Virus record (IMG/VR): IMGVR_UViG_3300030333_007116
Location: 1-48,141 of that record
DNA length: 48,141 bases
Source: a virus
Reading direction: 5' to 3' (one strand)
A program made the translations under genes and the position numbers. Position 1 is the stretch's first letter; each line of letters begins with the position of its first letter. The notes beneath the pieces are model-generated. The model saw nothing but the letters and a program-made list of their open reading frames with translations, searched no databases and had not been told where the DNA came from. Shown here in pieces: positions 5,085-21,988 of the stretch.

Positions 5085-6011
5085 TTACCGCTTGAAATGA
5101 ATCTCGCGGTCACTGTTACCGGCGTGTGCAATGACACACCCTATTTTTGAAAACACTTCGGCAAACCGCTCAGGGTGAGCGCCGAAATATGCGAACACCG
5201 TCCCGTGGGCTGGTGAATCGGTTTTGTTGTGTGGACCCCAGAACTTAATGCGACCCTGCACGAAGCAAAGTGAGCCGTCCCAGAGCTCGGCGAACCACTG
5301 AGTGTCTGTCGCATTGTTGATGCAGATAATCATTTCCTCGGTGGTGCCACGGTCGAACTCAGCCATGGCTTTCCTGATCCACTCTTGAATAACCTTACGG
5401 CCATACGGAGGGTTGAGGTAGACACGTCCAGGCCATGGTTCGTGCAACCCATTGCGGCCCTGAGCTACTGAGTAATAGACGTGGGCGTTAACCTTTGTGT
5501 TGGCTTCACTGCAGGACGCAGGGTCTAGGTCGATGTCACCCAGTACTTTTCTGACCAGGTCGATATACTTTTCTGGCGTGTACCAGTCGGCCGGTCCATC
5601 CATGCCAACAGTCGGTAGCTTACGCGCTACAACCTCGGCGACCTTGTCTTGGGTTACGTGGCCTTCCGACTCCTCAACGGCCTCAAGCCAAGCTTCCGCA
5701 CGGTCGTCTGGGTGGAGCTTTTTGAGGGGACGGGCCTGGCGCTCATTTTTCGGGAGCTCTTCAACCGCTGGGTTCGCTTTGAGTTTGCTGACAGTTTCTG
5801 CGGCCGACATGAGTCGGTGCGCATGTTGTCGCGTCCAACCCCAACGCTCTTTGCAATAGTCGTTAAAGTTTTCAAAGCCTTCTCGATAAAGCTTGTTTTC
5901 ATGGATCACCATTAGGGCTTGGCCAACCTCGACAAAGGTCTCAAAGCCGCGTTCAATTGTTTCTTCAAGCGCAGCCAAGCTAGTGCGTTCTGGAACAGTG
6001 AGGCTAGTCAA
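5085..6011 (-). CDS. Phage DNA N6-adenine methyltransferase
   Basis: 308 residues from a TTG at 6011, preceded by GGAG with 7-base spacing and overlapping the HNH stop; the longer frame upstream is in the shadow of that gene. The N-terminal part (about 20-80) is a helical domain often fused to these enzymes (LYREGFENFNDYCKERWGW). The C-terminal catalytic domain has WYTP (143-146), DLDPAS (161-166) and the catalytic NPPY (200-203), as in the phage DNA_N-6-Adenine_Mtase family. It transfers methyl from SAM to adenine N6, probably shielding phage DNA from restriction. Target sequence unknown. Confidence 0.85.
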   Translation of the reverse strand: MTSLTVPERTSLAALEETIERGFETFVEVGQALMVIHENKLYREGFENFNDYCKERWGWTRQHAHRLMSAAETVSKLKANPAVEELPKNERQARPLKKLHPDDRAEAWLEAVEESEGHVTQDKVAEVVARKLPTVGMDGPADWYTPEKYIDLVRKVLGDIDLDPASCSEANTKVNAHVYYSVAQGRNGLHEPWPGRVYLNPPYGRKVIQEWIRKAMAEFDRGTTEEMIICINNATDTQWFAELWDGSLCFVQGRIKFWGPHNKTDSPAHGTVFAYFGAHPERFAEVFSKIGCVIAHAGNSDREIHFKR

Positions 6012-6300
6012 TTCGATACTCCAGGTTAAATAGTTTGCAGTTTGTGGGATCACCATCGAGGTGAATGATGCGTGAGTGCTTGGGTCGTGGACCCAGGAAG
6101 GTTCGCAGTACGAGAGCTCGTACCTGTTGGGTCTTTTTTCCGTCGTGGTTACAGAGGGAGACGATGAGGACATCGGACGGGGCGTAACCCACTTTGAGAA
6201 TTTTCGGCTCGCGGCGTTTACGGTACGAACGAACACGTCCATGACTGCTGACCTCATAGTCCTCATATCCTTGAATTCTTTTCCATCGTTCACGGGTCAT
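6004..6300 (-). CDS. NUMOD4/HNH-type endonuclease
   Basis: 98 residues from ATG at 6300, overlapping the upstream stop (ATGA). An N-terminal NUMOD4-like motif (ERWKRIQGYEDYEVS followed by GRVRS) precedes an HNH-like core (IIHLDGDPTNCKLFNLEY). These are small site-specific homing-type nucleases. Here it is inserted cleanly between the exonuclease and the methyltransferase with coupled starts and stops, so it may be domesticated for packaging or modification rather than a free homing gene. The first Asn of the second half is retained; the last is in the N.FNLE segment. Confidence 0.75.
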   Translation of the reverse strand: MTRERWKRIQGYEDYEVSSHGRVRSYRKRREPKILKVGYAPSDVLIVSLCNHDGKKTQQVRALVLRTFLGPRPKHSRIIHLDGDPTNCKLFNLEYRID

Positions 6301-11901: not shown

Positions 11902-12201
11902 TTATGCGCTTTTTGTCTCGAAACGCTCACGTACTTTTTCTTTTTCTGCAAGCGTTTTTTTGATGCGTTTCGCGATCACACTGCGAGCAGCAAGTTGAGG
12001 CAAAGGAGTTTTCTCTTCTGCCTGCGCAAAGAAACGGTTGACGGTCGAGCGCAGCCAATAGCAGCGTTGCTTTTCGTCGTGGTTGAAGGGTTCAGGAAAT
12101 CTTCCTGCTTTCACCCATCGCTCCAGAGTCTTCCGATGGACTCCTAATAAGACGGAGAGTTGGGTTTTGGATATTAAAAGTGTCTCGGTGTTCCCCGACA
12201 T
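11902..12201 (-). CDS. AlpA-like / excisionase HTH regulator
   Basis: 99 residues. An N-terminal MerR-type HTH (LLISKTQLSVLLGVHRKTLE then RWVKAGRFPEPF) and a RYW-like strand (RCYWLRSTVNRFF) match AlpA/excisionase proteins, which direct integrase toward excision or activate it. The C-terminus is basic and helical. It starts inside the 3' end of the integrase gene behind GGAGG and is overlapped by it for 110 bases, an arrangement seen in integrase-excisionase pairs. Confidence 0.72.
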   Translation of the reverse strand: MSGNTETLLISKTQLSVLLGVHRKTLERWVKAGRFPEPFNHDEKQRCYWLRSTVNRFFAQAEEKTPLPQLAARSVIAKRIKKTLAEKEKVRERFETKSA

Positions 12202-13519
12202 TAAGTGCCTCCACGATGCAGTCTGTGGCCCCCCACATGCTGCTCTCGTCTTGGTTAGTAATGGTATTGATTGTCTTCATTAGTATGTTCGCCCAGTCCT
12301 GCATCATCGCAAACCGAGCTTCTAGATATTCATGTTGGTTATAATTCTTCTGCGTTGTTCCTTTCGGTAAGTGGCCAAGGCATCGCTCAATGAGCTTGTC
12401 GTCATATGAGAGCGCGCCCCAGCAGGTTGCTACGGTTCGTCGGATGTCGTGTGCCGTGTTCACAAACCCGCCCTGATCCTTGAGCGAGCGGTTGATGCAC
12501 ATCTGACCCCGGATGTGCTCGAAGATATAGTCATCACGGCTGGCTGGTTTGGTGGCCGTGTGCTGCTCTTGCAAGATCTGTTGGGCTTGCGTCGAGAGAA
12601 GGATGTGATGCGGTCGGCCCTTTTTCTGTCGTTCGGGTGACACCACCAACGACGGTGCACGGCCAGAAAGACTGTTCTGCATCTCACACCAGCGGGCCTG
12701 GATGATTTCCATCTTCCGCGCTCCGGTCAGCATCAGTAGACGCGCAGCTCGCTGTAGCTCGTAGGCCTTGGCTTCGCTCGTGTAGCAAAACTGCTCGTCG
12801 AAGGGCAGGAAGCGCCACAGGCGGCGAAACTCGCTGGCAGAAAACTTCGATGTTCGCGGCTTCTGATCGAGGTGCACGATGAAGTCTGGGAACGACAGGT
12901 TCTCATCAATGCGGTGCACACGGCGCGCTGCGTAGAAGGCCTTGCGCAGCAGCGAGAGCGCCTTCTGGATTGGCGTCAGCTTCTTGCCCGCGTTTGTGAG
13001 CTTTTCGTACCAGAAAATCAGGTCGCGGTTCGTTATCTCTGCGACGTCCCATTTGCCGAAATACGGTTCAAGGTAATTGTTAACCGAGTACCAGGCATTG
13101 CGGAGCGTGCCGGGTCGCATCTTCTTCTCGCCGTTCACGCACAGTGCGGTCGTGTTTGGGTCGCGAGTCTCGAGGTACCACTCCAGCATCTGCTTTACGT
13201 TGAATGTCACGTTGAGATTGCGACGGTTCACAATCTCGCCGGAGATGGTGTCTGTTCTGGCAATGGTCGCGCAGCGTTGACGTGCCTGCTCTGGTGTGAG
13301 ACTGGCTGATGTTCCCAACTTGGTGCGTGGGCGCTTGTTGCCAATCTTACGACGGTAGAAGTAGGTCTTGCGCTCAGGCTTCTTGCGATTCTTCATCGTC
13401 GGCGCACAGTCGAGCTCAAGGCCCGGTGTGCGCTCATCACGGTAGGTGACCGGCTTGCTGCCTTTTTCGGGCAGGGGTAGCGCCTTGACCGCATCGACGG
13501 TGAGAAGCAGCTTACTCAT
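12092..13519 (-). CDS. int: P4-type tyrosine integrase (first recombinase)
   Basis: 475 residues. N-terminal arm-binding DUF4102-like part (LLTVDAVKALPLPEKG...), SAM-like core-binding domain (about 105-200), catalytic domain 230-410 with Arg268 (LTGARKMEI), His357-x-x-Arg360 (AHDIRRT), His383 (LGHLP) and Tyr393 or Tyr398 (NYNQHEY). It integrates the phage into the host chromosome. About 60 residues follow the catalytic Tyr, and this tail is the part overlapping the alpA gene. Coupled to the upstream 160-residue gene. No convincing att core was identified beside it. Confidence 0.9.
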   Translation of the reverse strand: MSKLLLTVDAVKALPLPEKGSKPVTYRDERTPGLELDCAPTMKNRKKPERKTYFYRRKIGNKRPRTKLGTSASLTPEQARQRCATIARTDTISGEIVNRRNLNVTFNVKQMLEWYLETRDPNTTALCVNGEKKMRPGTLRNAWYSVNNYLEPYFGKWDVAEITNRDLIFWYEKLTNAGKKLTPIQKALSLLRKAFYAARRVHRIDENLSFPDFIVHLDQKPRTSKFSASEFRRLWRFLPFDEQFCYTSEAKAYELQRAARLLMLTGARKMEIIQARWCEMQNSLSGRAPSLVVSPERQKKGRPHHILLSTQAQQILQEQHTATKPASRDDYIFEHIRGQMCINRSLKDQGGFVNTAHDIRRTVATCWGALSYDDKLIERCLGHLPKGTTQKNYNQHEYLEARFAMMQDWANILMKTINTITNQDESSMWGATDCIVEALNVGEHRDTFNIQNPTLRLIRSPSEDSGAMGESRKIS

Positions 13520-15731: not shown

Positions 15732-15887
15732 TCACTCGAAATCCTTTCGGGTGAATTGGTGTCGGCAATCTTGGTTAATGTCGGCAGCAATATTCGCAAC
15801 CATAGCCGCTAGGCTGTTACCGACTAACGGAACAACCGATACTACTGCAGCAAAAACCAATAGGTTAAACGTCAAGAAATCTCTCAT
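15732..15887 (-). CDS. Small membrane protein, 51 residues
   Basis: ATG at 15887 overlaps the stop of the recombinase gene (ATGA). The product starts MRDFLTFN and has a hydrophobic run of about 28 residues (LLVFAAVVSVVPLVG, then NSLAAMVANIAA) followed by a short charged tail (RKDFE). Too short for automatic ORF lists but supported by coupling and topology. Function unknown; such peptides downstream of a recombinase may be toxins or exclusion proteins, with no direct evidence here. Confidence 0.5.
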   Translation of the reverse strand: MRDFLTFNLLVFAAVVSVVPLVGNSLAAMVANIAADINQDCRHQFTRKDFE

Positions 15888-16798
15888 TGGTCATTATCCC
15901 CCATAGACATTGGATGGTTTTGGAGCAGCTCGCTCTGGTCATAATACCGTTTCATTGCTTCCAGTGATTTATGACCAGTCACCGCTTGTGTGATTGCCAT
16001 ATGTACGCCGCGCTTGGCGCAATCGGTGATAAAACCGGCGCGTATGCTATGGGGTGAATATTGGCTAGGGTCGATACCGGCCGATTGTAGTGTCTTGCTA
16101 AAAACAGAATCAAAGCCAGATCGGCTCAAACGCCTATCTACCAACCGATCGGCGCGTGATACGGGACGCCATAAGGGGCCAGTATCACCGACTAGATCCA
16201 AGTAGTTCTTGAGGGATTGATACGCGTCTAAAGCAAAATCCTTTAGAACCAATTTTAGGCGAGAATCAATACTACCTTTTTCTACTACTTGTAGCGTAAA
16301 ACCATCCGGTATTGATACGATATGGTTGACGTCTAAACCGAGTAACTCTTTTTTGCGGCTAGCAGTAACCCAAGCGGTAGTAAGCAATGCGCGATCTCTA
16401 ATCCCTCTGTGAGTAGATAGATCGAGCGCGCCTATCATTGCTTGTGCTAGTTCAGGGGTTAGCGCCTTTAACCTTTTTTTAGGTCGCGTTGCGTGTTCCC
16501 GCTTGAGTGATTGAATCAGGTTTTCTAACCGCTCCGAGCGATAGCCCGCTTGCACTAGCGCCGAGTAGGCTTGATTGATTGTGGCATAGGCTAGGCCTTG
16601 ATTGTGCATCTCAGTTAGATACGCAATGGCAGACCGTGAGCAACTCGAGACGCCTCGAGTTTGACACCAATCATCAAAGGAAGCCAAAACCCGCTGGTAT
16701 GCGTCAACCGTCCTAGGCGATTGGATCCCCTGTTCAATTTGCTTAGCTTGTGCGTCTAGCGCCGCTAGCGGATCAAGCTTGATAACTTTAGCCGTCAT
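15884..16798 (-). CDS. Second tyrosine recombinase, XerC/D-like
   Basis: 304 residues, the length of Xer-type recombinases. An N-terminal SAM-like domain (about 25-100; SPRTVDAYQRVLASFDDWC) precedes the catalytic domain with Arg148 (TASRKKELL), His250-x-x-Arg253 (HSIRAGF), His276 (TGHKSLEAM) and Tyr285/286 (KRYYDQ). It is unrelated in layout to the P4-type integrase at 12092-13519. A second recombinase inside a compositionally distinct block suggests that the block is or was a separate mobile element, or that this enzyme resolves multimers. Overlaps the upstream gene by ATGA. Confidence 0.9.
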   Translation of the reverse strand: MTAKVIKLDPLAALDAQAKQIEQGIQSPRTVDAYQRVLASFDDWCQTRGVSSCSRSAIAYLTEMHNQGLAYATINQAYSALVQAGYRSERLENLIQSLKREHATRPKKRLKALTPELAQAMIGALDLSTHRGIRDRALLTTAWVTASRKKELLGLDVNHIVSIPDGFTLQVVEKGSIDSRLKLVLKDFALDAYQSLKNYLDLVGDTGPLWRPVSRADRLVDRRLSRSGFDSVFSKTLQSAGIDPSQYSPHSIRAGFITDCAKRGVHMAITQAVTGHKSLEAMKRYYDQSELLQNHPMSMGDNDQ

Positions 16799-20769: not shown

Positions 20770-21231
20770 ATGCCGAAGCGTTACGACAGCACCACGCTGT
20801 CAGTGCAGACACAACGACGTCACGATGACGAAGCCCTTGAAAGAGTCAGGGCTGAACTGCGCGCAGAAGCAAAGCAAGTCCCCGTCAACAAGCAACTCCA
20901 TCTCGAGGCTGAGACTAGTCTCGTACCTGACGTGCACAGTCTGATCGGCAACGCCTACCACATTATCGACACTGAGCTCCGCACGTTAAAGTCGTTGAGT
21001 CGAAACCAGTACGAGGGACTCGACAAAAACCAGGCAGCCAACTTCGCCGCCATCGTCCGCTCTATTCAGACGCTCAACAACGTTGAGATGACCCTGCGTG
21101 ACCAAAACGCACTCGAAGCTCTCCCAGATGACGAGCTGCGCAAGCGAGCGAGTGAAGCCTTCCTTAAGTTAGACAAACGACTGCAAAAGGCCATTACCGA
21201 GGAAGCACTCAAAGGAGGCAAGGGTGGATGA
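20770..21231 (+). CDS. Putative small terminase-like or packaging-region protein, 153 residues
   Basis: Start at ATG 20770 (MPKRYDSTTLSVQ), since the open frame before it lacks a ribosome site. N-terminal part basic, then two long helices (IIDTELRTLKSLSRNQYEGL and NNVEMTLRDQNALE) and a Lys-rich end (KLDKRLQKAITEEALKGGK). Size, charge and place upstream of terL suit a small terminase subunit, but no HTH or family is recognised; the intervening methyltransferase weakens the case. Confidence 0.5.
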   Translation: MPKRYDSTTLSVQTQRRHDDEALERVRAELRAEAKQVPVNKQLHLEAETSLVPDVHSLIGNAYHIIDTELRTLKSLSRNQYEGLDKNQAANFAAIVRSIQTLNNVEMTLRDQNALEALPDDELRKRASEAFLKLDKRLQKAITEEALKGGKGG

Positions 21232-21988
21232 GCTCAAAATCGCCTCCCTCTTCTCCGGCATCGGCGGCTTCGAGTACGGGGTCGAGGCAGCTATCCCTAA
21301 TTCCCGAACCGTCGCCCAAGTCGAGATCGACGACTACTGTAGAGACGTGCTCGCCTGGCACTGGCCCAAAGCCGTGCAGTTCGGCGACATCCGCGACGTC
21401 AGAGGGCCTGAGCTCAATTCGCCAGACATCCTGCTCGGCGGGTCGCCCTGTCAAGGCTTCTCATCAGCTGGGATGGCAGCCGGACTGGAGGATGAACGTT
21501 CGGCCCTTTGGCATGAGATGCTTCGACTGGTGCGCGAAACTCGACCGAAGTACGTGGGCATCGAGAACGTGTCGGCTCTTTCCGAACGAGGCCTCGACCA
21601 AGTACTCGGGGGATTGGCCCAAGCGGGGTATGATGCGGAATGGGCATGTCTATCAGGATATGACACCGGCTCGCCCCAGCGCCGCTCCCGAATATGGATC
21701 CTGGCCTACCCCATTGAGCTCGGACTACCGCTCCAGTCGAAGAGCCGCGTATATGGAGAACGGCAACGCTGGGACGACGTTGCTCGACGCAGCGATGGCC
21801 CACGACGGTTTTCCGCAAACCCGTGGCAAGACGGACCGCCGGTTGAATCCACGATTCGTTCTGTGGCTCATGGGATATCCGATGGATTGGTTCGATGGCG
21901 TGAACAAATCAGCGCGCTGGGCAATGCCATTATCCCCCAAGCAGCCTTCTGGCTCGGCAACCGAATAGCGGAGATCGAGTATGGATGA
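21224..21988 (+). CDS. DNA (cytosine-5) methyltransferase
   Basis: 254 residues, GTG start behind AAAGGAGGCAAGG. All core C5 motifs are visible: SLFSGIGGFE (I), GGSPCQGFS with catalytic Cys76 (IV), GIENV (VI), PQRRSRIWI (VIII) and ALGNAIIPQ (X). The target-recognition part between VIII and X is short (about 70 residues). It methylates cytosine in a site that cannot be read from sequence, probably to evade host restriction. A second frame stays open through nearly the whole gene (21228-21968). Its stop overlaps the GNAT-like gene. Confidence 0.92.
   Translation: MDELKIASLFSGIGGFEYGVEAAIPNSRTVAQVEIDDYCRDVLAWHWPKAVQFGDIRDVRGPELNSPDILLGGSPCQGFSSAGMAAGLEDERSALWHEMLRLVRETRPKYVGIENVSALSERGLDQVLGGLAQAGYDAEWACLSGYDTGSPQRRSRIWILAYPIELGLPLQSKSRVYGERQRWDDVARRSDGPRRFSANPWQDGPPVESTIRSVAHGISDGLVRWREQISALGNAIIPQAAFWLGNRIAEIEYG
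21228..21968 (+). CDS. Overlapping +1-frame ORF within the C5 methyltransferase gene, 246 residues
   Basis: An ATG 4 bases after the GTG of the methyltransferase opens a frame that stays open for 741 bases. Its N-terminal half is low-complexity (Ser/Pro/Arg), as expected for an antiphase reading, but the second half carries segments that I recall from a separate recurring phage protein type: SGDWPKRGMMRNGHVYQ, GSWPTPLSSD and LNPRFVLWLMGYPMDWFDG (the usual form reads LNP.WVEWLMGFP.GW). These coincide with the recognition region and motif X of the methyltransferase. Whether it is translated is unknown; long openness and recognisable motifs argue that it is more than a shadow. Confidence 0.5.
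   Translation: MSSKSPPSSPASAASSTGSRQLSLIPEPSPKSRSTTTVETCSPGTGPKPCSSATSATSEGLSSIRQTSCSAGRPVKASHQLGWQPDWRMNVRPFGMRCFDWCAKLDRSTWASRTCRLFPNEASTKYSGDWPKRGMMRNGHVYQDMTPARPSAAPEYGSWPTPLSSDYRSSRRAAYMENGNAGTTLLDAAMAHDGFPQTRGKTDRRLNPRFVLWLMGYPMDWFDGVNKSARWAMPLSPKQPSGSATE

Follow-up and report, generated by a model that had tools for sequence, protein, structure and literature searches.

The 48 kb virus record that we analysed as a whole (henceforth the window; 60% GC) carries on its plus strand, upstream of terminase, portal and major head genes, a gene for a C5 cytosine methyltransferase inside which a second open reading frame runs in the +1 register. We call the frame-0 ORF alpha and the +1 ORF beta. 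The opposite strand of the window carries genes for primase, integrase and exonuclease; two distinct integrase-like ORFs (phrog_1) are found at 12092-13519 and 15884-16798, and a second methyltransferase-like gene (phrog_111, E 1e-29) at 5085-6293, all on the minus strand. No endonuclease gene was identified within the 48 kb window. An initial annotation of this DNA had described both frames as open for more than 740 bases and had picked out three peptides in the +1 frame; the ORFs at 21224-21988 and 21228-21968 bear this out, and all three peptides are present. The features of the locus are as follows.

21212..21218, plus strand: putative Shine-Dalgarno sequence AAGGAGG, 5 nt 5' of the alpha GTG and 9 nt 5' of the +1 ATG at 21228
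21224..21988, plus strand: alpha ORF, catalytic body of a C5 cytosine methyltransferase with motifs I-VIII and X; GTG start, 254 aa (PF00145, 4e-41; phrog_363, 1e-59)
21228..21968, plus strand: beta ORF in the +1 frame, at its maximal extent from ATG 21228; 246 aa (phrog_1008, 4e-14; substitution pattern)
21446..21454, plus strand: alpha motif IV (PCQ, with the catalytic cysteine)
21492..21968, plus strand: alternative, shorter beta from a putative start at ATG 21492, whose equivalent is a conserved +1 ATG in type-2 relatives and ACG in the nearest relative, L009
21563..21571, plus strand: alpha motif VI (ENV), ~20 codons downstream of the onset of +1 constraint in relatives
21606..21653, plus strand: doubly coding segment, with beta SGDWPKRGMMRNGHVY read across GYDAEW of alpha (motif VII region)
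21677..21691, plus strand: alpha motif VIII (QRRSR)
21696..21725, plus strand: xPTP element of the beta recognition region, GSWPTPLSSD; present once in the window and 1-4 times in relatives
21737..21901, plus strand: alpha residues 172-226, predicted unfolded (pLDDT<50), evolving as third positions of beta; the site of the recognition domain in one-piece enzymes
21843..21899, plus strand: beta motif IX, LNPRFVLWLMGYPMDWFDG, agreeing with the canonical motif IX and adjoining alpha motif X
21908..21985, plus strand: alpha motif X (ISALGNAIIPQAAFWLGNRIAEI), where frame-0 constraint resumes

Alpha belongs to the C5 methyltransferases (PF00145) by its motifs I, IV (PCQ), VI (ENV), VIII and X and by its class I methyltransferase fold. 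It does not have the one-chain form of these enzymes, as motif IX is absent from the alpha chain and present in the +1 frame. The AlphaFold model of alpha has a pLDDT of ~90 over most of motifs I-VIII and X, the helix of motif X being predicted with confidence, and M.HhaI is its best fold match (E 2e-17). The alpha sequence VAHGxPxRVDRL is the out-of-frame reading of WLMGFPxGWTDL in beta.

Beta ends shortly before the end of alpha motif X. A PHROG search also matched beta to the C-terminal part of phrog_116; Pfam and PDB searches with beta returned no match. Modelled alone in AlphaFold, beta gave a poor structure (pLDDT 58, pTM 0.24), which might be expected if the domain needs its partner in order to fold, or might stem from a shallow alignment. 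In the window, ATG 21228 and the alpha GTG share the strong ribosome-binding sequence AAGGAGG, and a search across the relatives found no conserved beta start codon or ribosome-binding site. In most of the relatives L010-L067, the frame-0 LRP that precedes motif VI has its Arg encoded by CGA after a codon ending in TA or TT, and the resulting TACGACC or TTCGACC spells YD or FD in the +1 frame. The three peptides had been placed over the recognition region and motif X of the methyltransferase: the third does lie just before motif X (LGNA at 21917), but the first coincides with GYDAEW, which alpha has between motifs VI and VIII, and not with the recognition region.

Distribution and annotation of the arrangement

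Searches driven by beta gave 160 loci, 80 from bacterial genomes and 80 viral, and at 155 of them beta lies exactly in the +1 register inside an alpha ORF that is open throughout. The five exceptions are a locus at a contig edge (L109), two in which alpha is apparently broken by indels (L110 and L220), one in which alpha stops early (L161), and L144, where the N-terminus of alpha was not recognised and motif X is in frame 0. No standalone beta was seen among the 160 loci of this beta-driven search, cut or frameshifted cases aside. The initial annotation had counted a lack of the +1 motifs outside methyltransferases as evidence against an overprinted gene; they were indeed never found standing alone, yet the overprinting stands, and that criterion proved misleading. 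We attribute the lack of a standalone beta to alpha and beta being, as it seems, halves of one enzyme.

Among ten further annotated records (nine phages and one Leptospira plasmid), nine have a +1 beta with motif IX, the one without the standard arrangement being Lucky2013. Alpha alone is annotated in most of those further records whose annotation was read. The public records of L003 (1926-2426) and L004 (2007-2687) annotate beta as a gene and leave alpha unannotated. Our conclusion is that the arrangement is very common, occurring in phages and prophages of many bacterial phyla, and that it is nearly always annotated as one gene. A literature search, with most subscription journals outside its range, found no published report of the phage-wide arrangement. 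Separately, we observed that in mycobacteriophage Llama (L265, 801-1560) the annotation divides alpha into genes 74 and 75, and alpha is apparently broken by a small indel near motif VI, in contrast to ShroomBoi (L256).

Both frames are under protein-level selection

The window sequence alone would not settle whether the +1 ORF is real. When the synonymous codons of the methyltransferase were shuffled, an open +1 frame of 246 codons persisted in 0.95% of trials; all three types of +1 motif occurred together in 0 of 20,000 shuffles. For the GC-rich window gene alone, openness from motif VI on is weak evidence (p=0.09). In 60 relatives (39-61% GC), 60 open +1 stretches were seen where 1.5 were expected, and 54 motif IX matches where 0.6 were expected, both counts coming from relatives that are not all independent. 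Even in AT-rich relatives (41-44% GC) the +1 frame is open over 115-265 codons. Shuffling the codons of beta instead, frame 0 is expected to be open in 3.9 of the 60 loci, against 60 of 60 observed, and we therefore take alpha to be translated through. Frame 0 is selected for openness across the recognition region, though the amino acids there vary freely.

The position at which codons change discriminates between the frames, given that in a +1 overlap the third position of each +1 codon coincides with frame-0 position 1, and its second position with frame-0 position 3. Our main substitution set comprised 18 independent pairs of IMG/VR viral relatives. In these pairs, 25-27% of the changes across motifs I-VI fell at frame-0 position 1 and 63-65% at position 3, and the position-3 share from motif I to motif VIII was 58-67%. 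From motif VIII to motif IX (up to the VAHG segment) position 1 took 57% of the changes and position 3 took 19%; in the motif IX segment the shares were 69% and 18%, and from motif X (LGN) to the end they were 24% and 59%. This switch of constraint between segments is highly significant (Fisher p=1e-61), and it was replicated (p=7e-49) in 35 other pairs from bacterial genomes and viral contigs, found using the +1 protein as query. The window and L009, taken as a single pair, also show a significant switch (p=0.004). By DNA pattern only L009/L269, which are one contig, are close relatives of the window gene; otherwise the loci are distant and have the same arrangement.

Rates at fourfold synonymous sites in 22 marine relatives give the same boundaries from another direction, with the reduced synonymous variation that had been predicted for the methyltransferase frame: the rate is 0.24-0.48 up to codon 90, 0.00-0.16 over codons 91-270, and 0.50 directly after the beta stop. 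The drop from codon 91 places the beginning of beta upstream of motif VI, so that motifs VI-VIII fall within the overlap, where both frames are constrained. Some 60 codons thus code for both proteins, which argues for beta as a separate polypeptide. Selection at the protein level acts on both frames, in segments that complement each other and in a fixed +1 register, and the +1 ORF is real rather than a by-product.

A probable split methyltransferase and its rivals

The C-terminal LNPRFVLWLMGYPMDW of beta is the counterpart of M.HhaI motif IX, LHPRECARVMGYPDSY. A profile built from beta motif IX finds the motif IX of one-frame enzymes and of M.HhaI with 7-11 bits, the best of 2,000 shuffles scoring 3.9. 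Judged by these matches, LNPxWVEWLMGFP, which the initial annotation likened to a motif family of other phage-encoded proteins, is the canonical C5 methyltransferase motif IX, the very motif that the methyltransferase was missing, and beta is most probably the small domain that this enzyme would otherwise lack rather than an unrelated phage protein. The division between frames differs among relatives. Two relatives that use a single frame, L066 and L250, carry motif IX in frame 0, with 28 and 14 stops, respectively, in +1. In the AquI-like loci L001 (1907-2852) and L206 (1048-1906), alpha stops shortly past motif VIII, and both IX and X are found in the +1 ORF; in L001, of Corndog-type mycobacteriophages, the annotation lists the two ORFs separately as genes 6 and 5, each a 'DNA methylase'. 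In L007 (1889-2953, Gordonia phage JKSyngboy), frame 0 again has motifs IX and X, with the WPTP-type region still in +1.

Could conserved DNA, codon bias or a signal at the nucleotide level have left the +1 frame open merely as a by-product? The base composition of the window and the weak openness from motif VI on would both allow it, and GMMRNG in beta is partly dictated by the conserved GYDAEW of alpha. A nucleotide-level signal, however, would not shift the free positions to the third positions of +1 codons, and the synonymous drop, the codon-shuffle nulls and the open frames of AT-rich relatives contradict this reading along with the codon-position pattern. We give it next to no credence, and rejected it on the codon-position pattern in the 18 pairs and the 35-pair replicate; of the two options that had initially been left side by side, an overprinted gene or a recurrent by-product, the first stands and the second falls. 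A different proposal is that beta is made by programmed ribosomal frameshifting in the alpha message, such that an N-terminal piece of alpha is fused to beta. Frameshifting would account for the lack of a conserved beta start codon or ribosome-binding site, and several relatives have no ATG, GTG or TTG with a good ribosome-binding site where the constraint begins. The single-chain product of a shift after motif VIII is nevertheless ruled out, the +1 constraint being present already ~60 codons upstream of that point, while a shift upstream of motif VI would yield a product without motifs VI-VIII. Inspection around the onset of constraint revealed no conserved slippery sequence, and the window does have ATG 21228 with a strong ribosome-binding site. 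On balance we consider frameshifting unlikely.

It might also be argued that beta is translated but is no methyltransferase subunit, being, for example, an independent phage protein or an anti-restriction factor, given that it has neither a structural model nor an experimentally characterised homologue in the libraries used. This we regard as very unlikely: beta contains a canonical motif IX that is absent from alpha, it is never found apart from alpha in the 160 loci except in cut or frameshifted cases, IX and X are contiguous in beta in L001 and L206, and IX is back in the alpha frame in L007. We also considered and rejected a hidden homing endonuclease of the type described in PMC11855218, there being no HNH match in Pfam or PHROG.

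We therefore hold it to be highly probable that the locus is a two-subunit (split) C5 cytosine methyltransferase, both parts of which are encoded by one stretch of DNA. In such an enzyme, alpha would fold as the catalytic body, with the SAM site, the PCQ catalytic loop, ENV, QRR and motif X, and would form an unstructured linker where a one-piece enzyme has its target-recognition domain. Beta, read in +1 from upstream of motif VI, would supply the target-recognition region or loops together with motif IX, and would dock at the position of the small domain of M.HhaI, such that alpha and beta form one enzyme. This enzyme would methylate cytosine within a specific sequence in phage (and host) DNA, and would most likely be an orphan protective enzyme that shields the phage from host restriction. 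We infer that beta is translated, that a heterodimer forms and is active, and that its role is protective.

Between GMMxNG and motif IX, beta has 1-4 xPTP units and is ~40 aa longer per unit (124 loci, r=0.74); tandem units are seen, for example, in L056 (525-1469), L047 (1253-2209) and L266. By analogy with the multispecific phage methyltransferases, the tandem units suggest multiple recognition modules. A relaxed form of the TL motif, the published consensus of recognition domains (PMC2413257), occurs in 144 of 229 betas and in 1 of 229 alpha frames; the strict consensus is present in only 4 of the 229 betas. From the length scaling and the TL counts, tandem recognition modules are therefore plausible but unproven. 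A bolder version, which we put forward tentatively and as possible rather than probable, is that beta is an overprinted modular specificity subunit with 1-4 xPTP modules, whose specificity changes by gain and loss of modules while alpha is merely kept open, and that motifs IX and X have switched frames several times.

If the locus does encode a split methyltransferase, a large share of the phage genes annotated as 'DNA cytosine methyltransferase' would represent only half an enzyme, its specificity half being unannotated. Alpha cloned alone would then give an inactive protein, and predictions of specificity made from alpha would rest on a meaningless linker. Few examples of two enzyme halves overprinted in nested fashion would be as widespread as this arrangement, which would also link a rare curiosity of the 1990s (M.EcoHK31I and M.AquI) to a common phage strategy. 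It can be tested in laboratory phages, for instance in those that infect Mycobacterium smegmatis.

Comparison with known systems

Two split C5 methyltransferases provide the closest comparisons. According to PMC3404938, M.EcoHK31I, which recognises YGGCCR, consists of a larger polypeptide bearing motifs I-VIII and X, to which the predicted recognition domain is also assigned, and a smaller one bearing motif IX (Lee, Kam and Shaw 1995). The same source describes M.AquI, which recognises CYCGRG, as having motifs IX and X, together with a part of its recognition region, on the smaller subunit (Karreman and de Waard 1990).

The window has the same division of motifs as M.EcoHK31I, I-VIII and X against IX, its second polypeptide being a predicted one. 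The beta ORF of M.EcoHK31I is reportedly also nested in the alpha gene in another frame. The two differ in that the recognition region of the window is constrained in the beta frame and predicted to be unfolded in alpha; we read this mismatch as a difference between variants, because the published placement of the recognition domain is itself a prediction. Furthermore, M.EcoHK31I is part of a restriction-modification system, whereas no endonuclease was identified in the window. M.AquI is alike in having two polypeptides, with motif IX and part of the recognition region on the smaller, but its motif X is also on the smaller subunit, whereas motif X of the window is constrained in the alpha frame; L001 and L206 are the AquI-like loci in this respect. 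M.HhaI and M.HaeIII have the catalytic fold in common with alpha, and M.HhaI has motif IX in common with beta, yet both are made as one chain from one frame.

PHROG 1008 ('DNA methyltransferase') is the beta family, matched by 37 of 38 betas and called as a gene in some phages; the library name omits that its members are the out-of-frame half of a C5 methyltransferase gene. The hidden HNH endonuclease ORFs of the ShiLan type, which are homing elements inserted in phage methylase genes (PMC11855218), are likewise out-of-frame ORFs in a phage DNA methylase gene whose frame 0 is open. Beta differs in being native rather than inserted and present in nearly all homologues, with no HNH among its Pfam and PHROG matches, and we consider the two unrelated. 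By its motifs and substitution pattern, the locus has an EcoHK31I-like division of motifs in which the recognition-region constraint is also found in beta.
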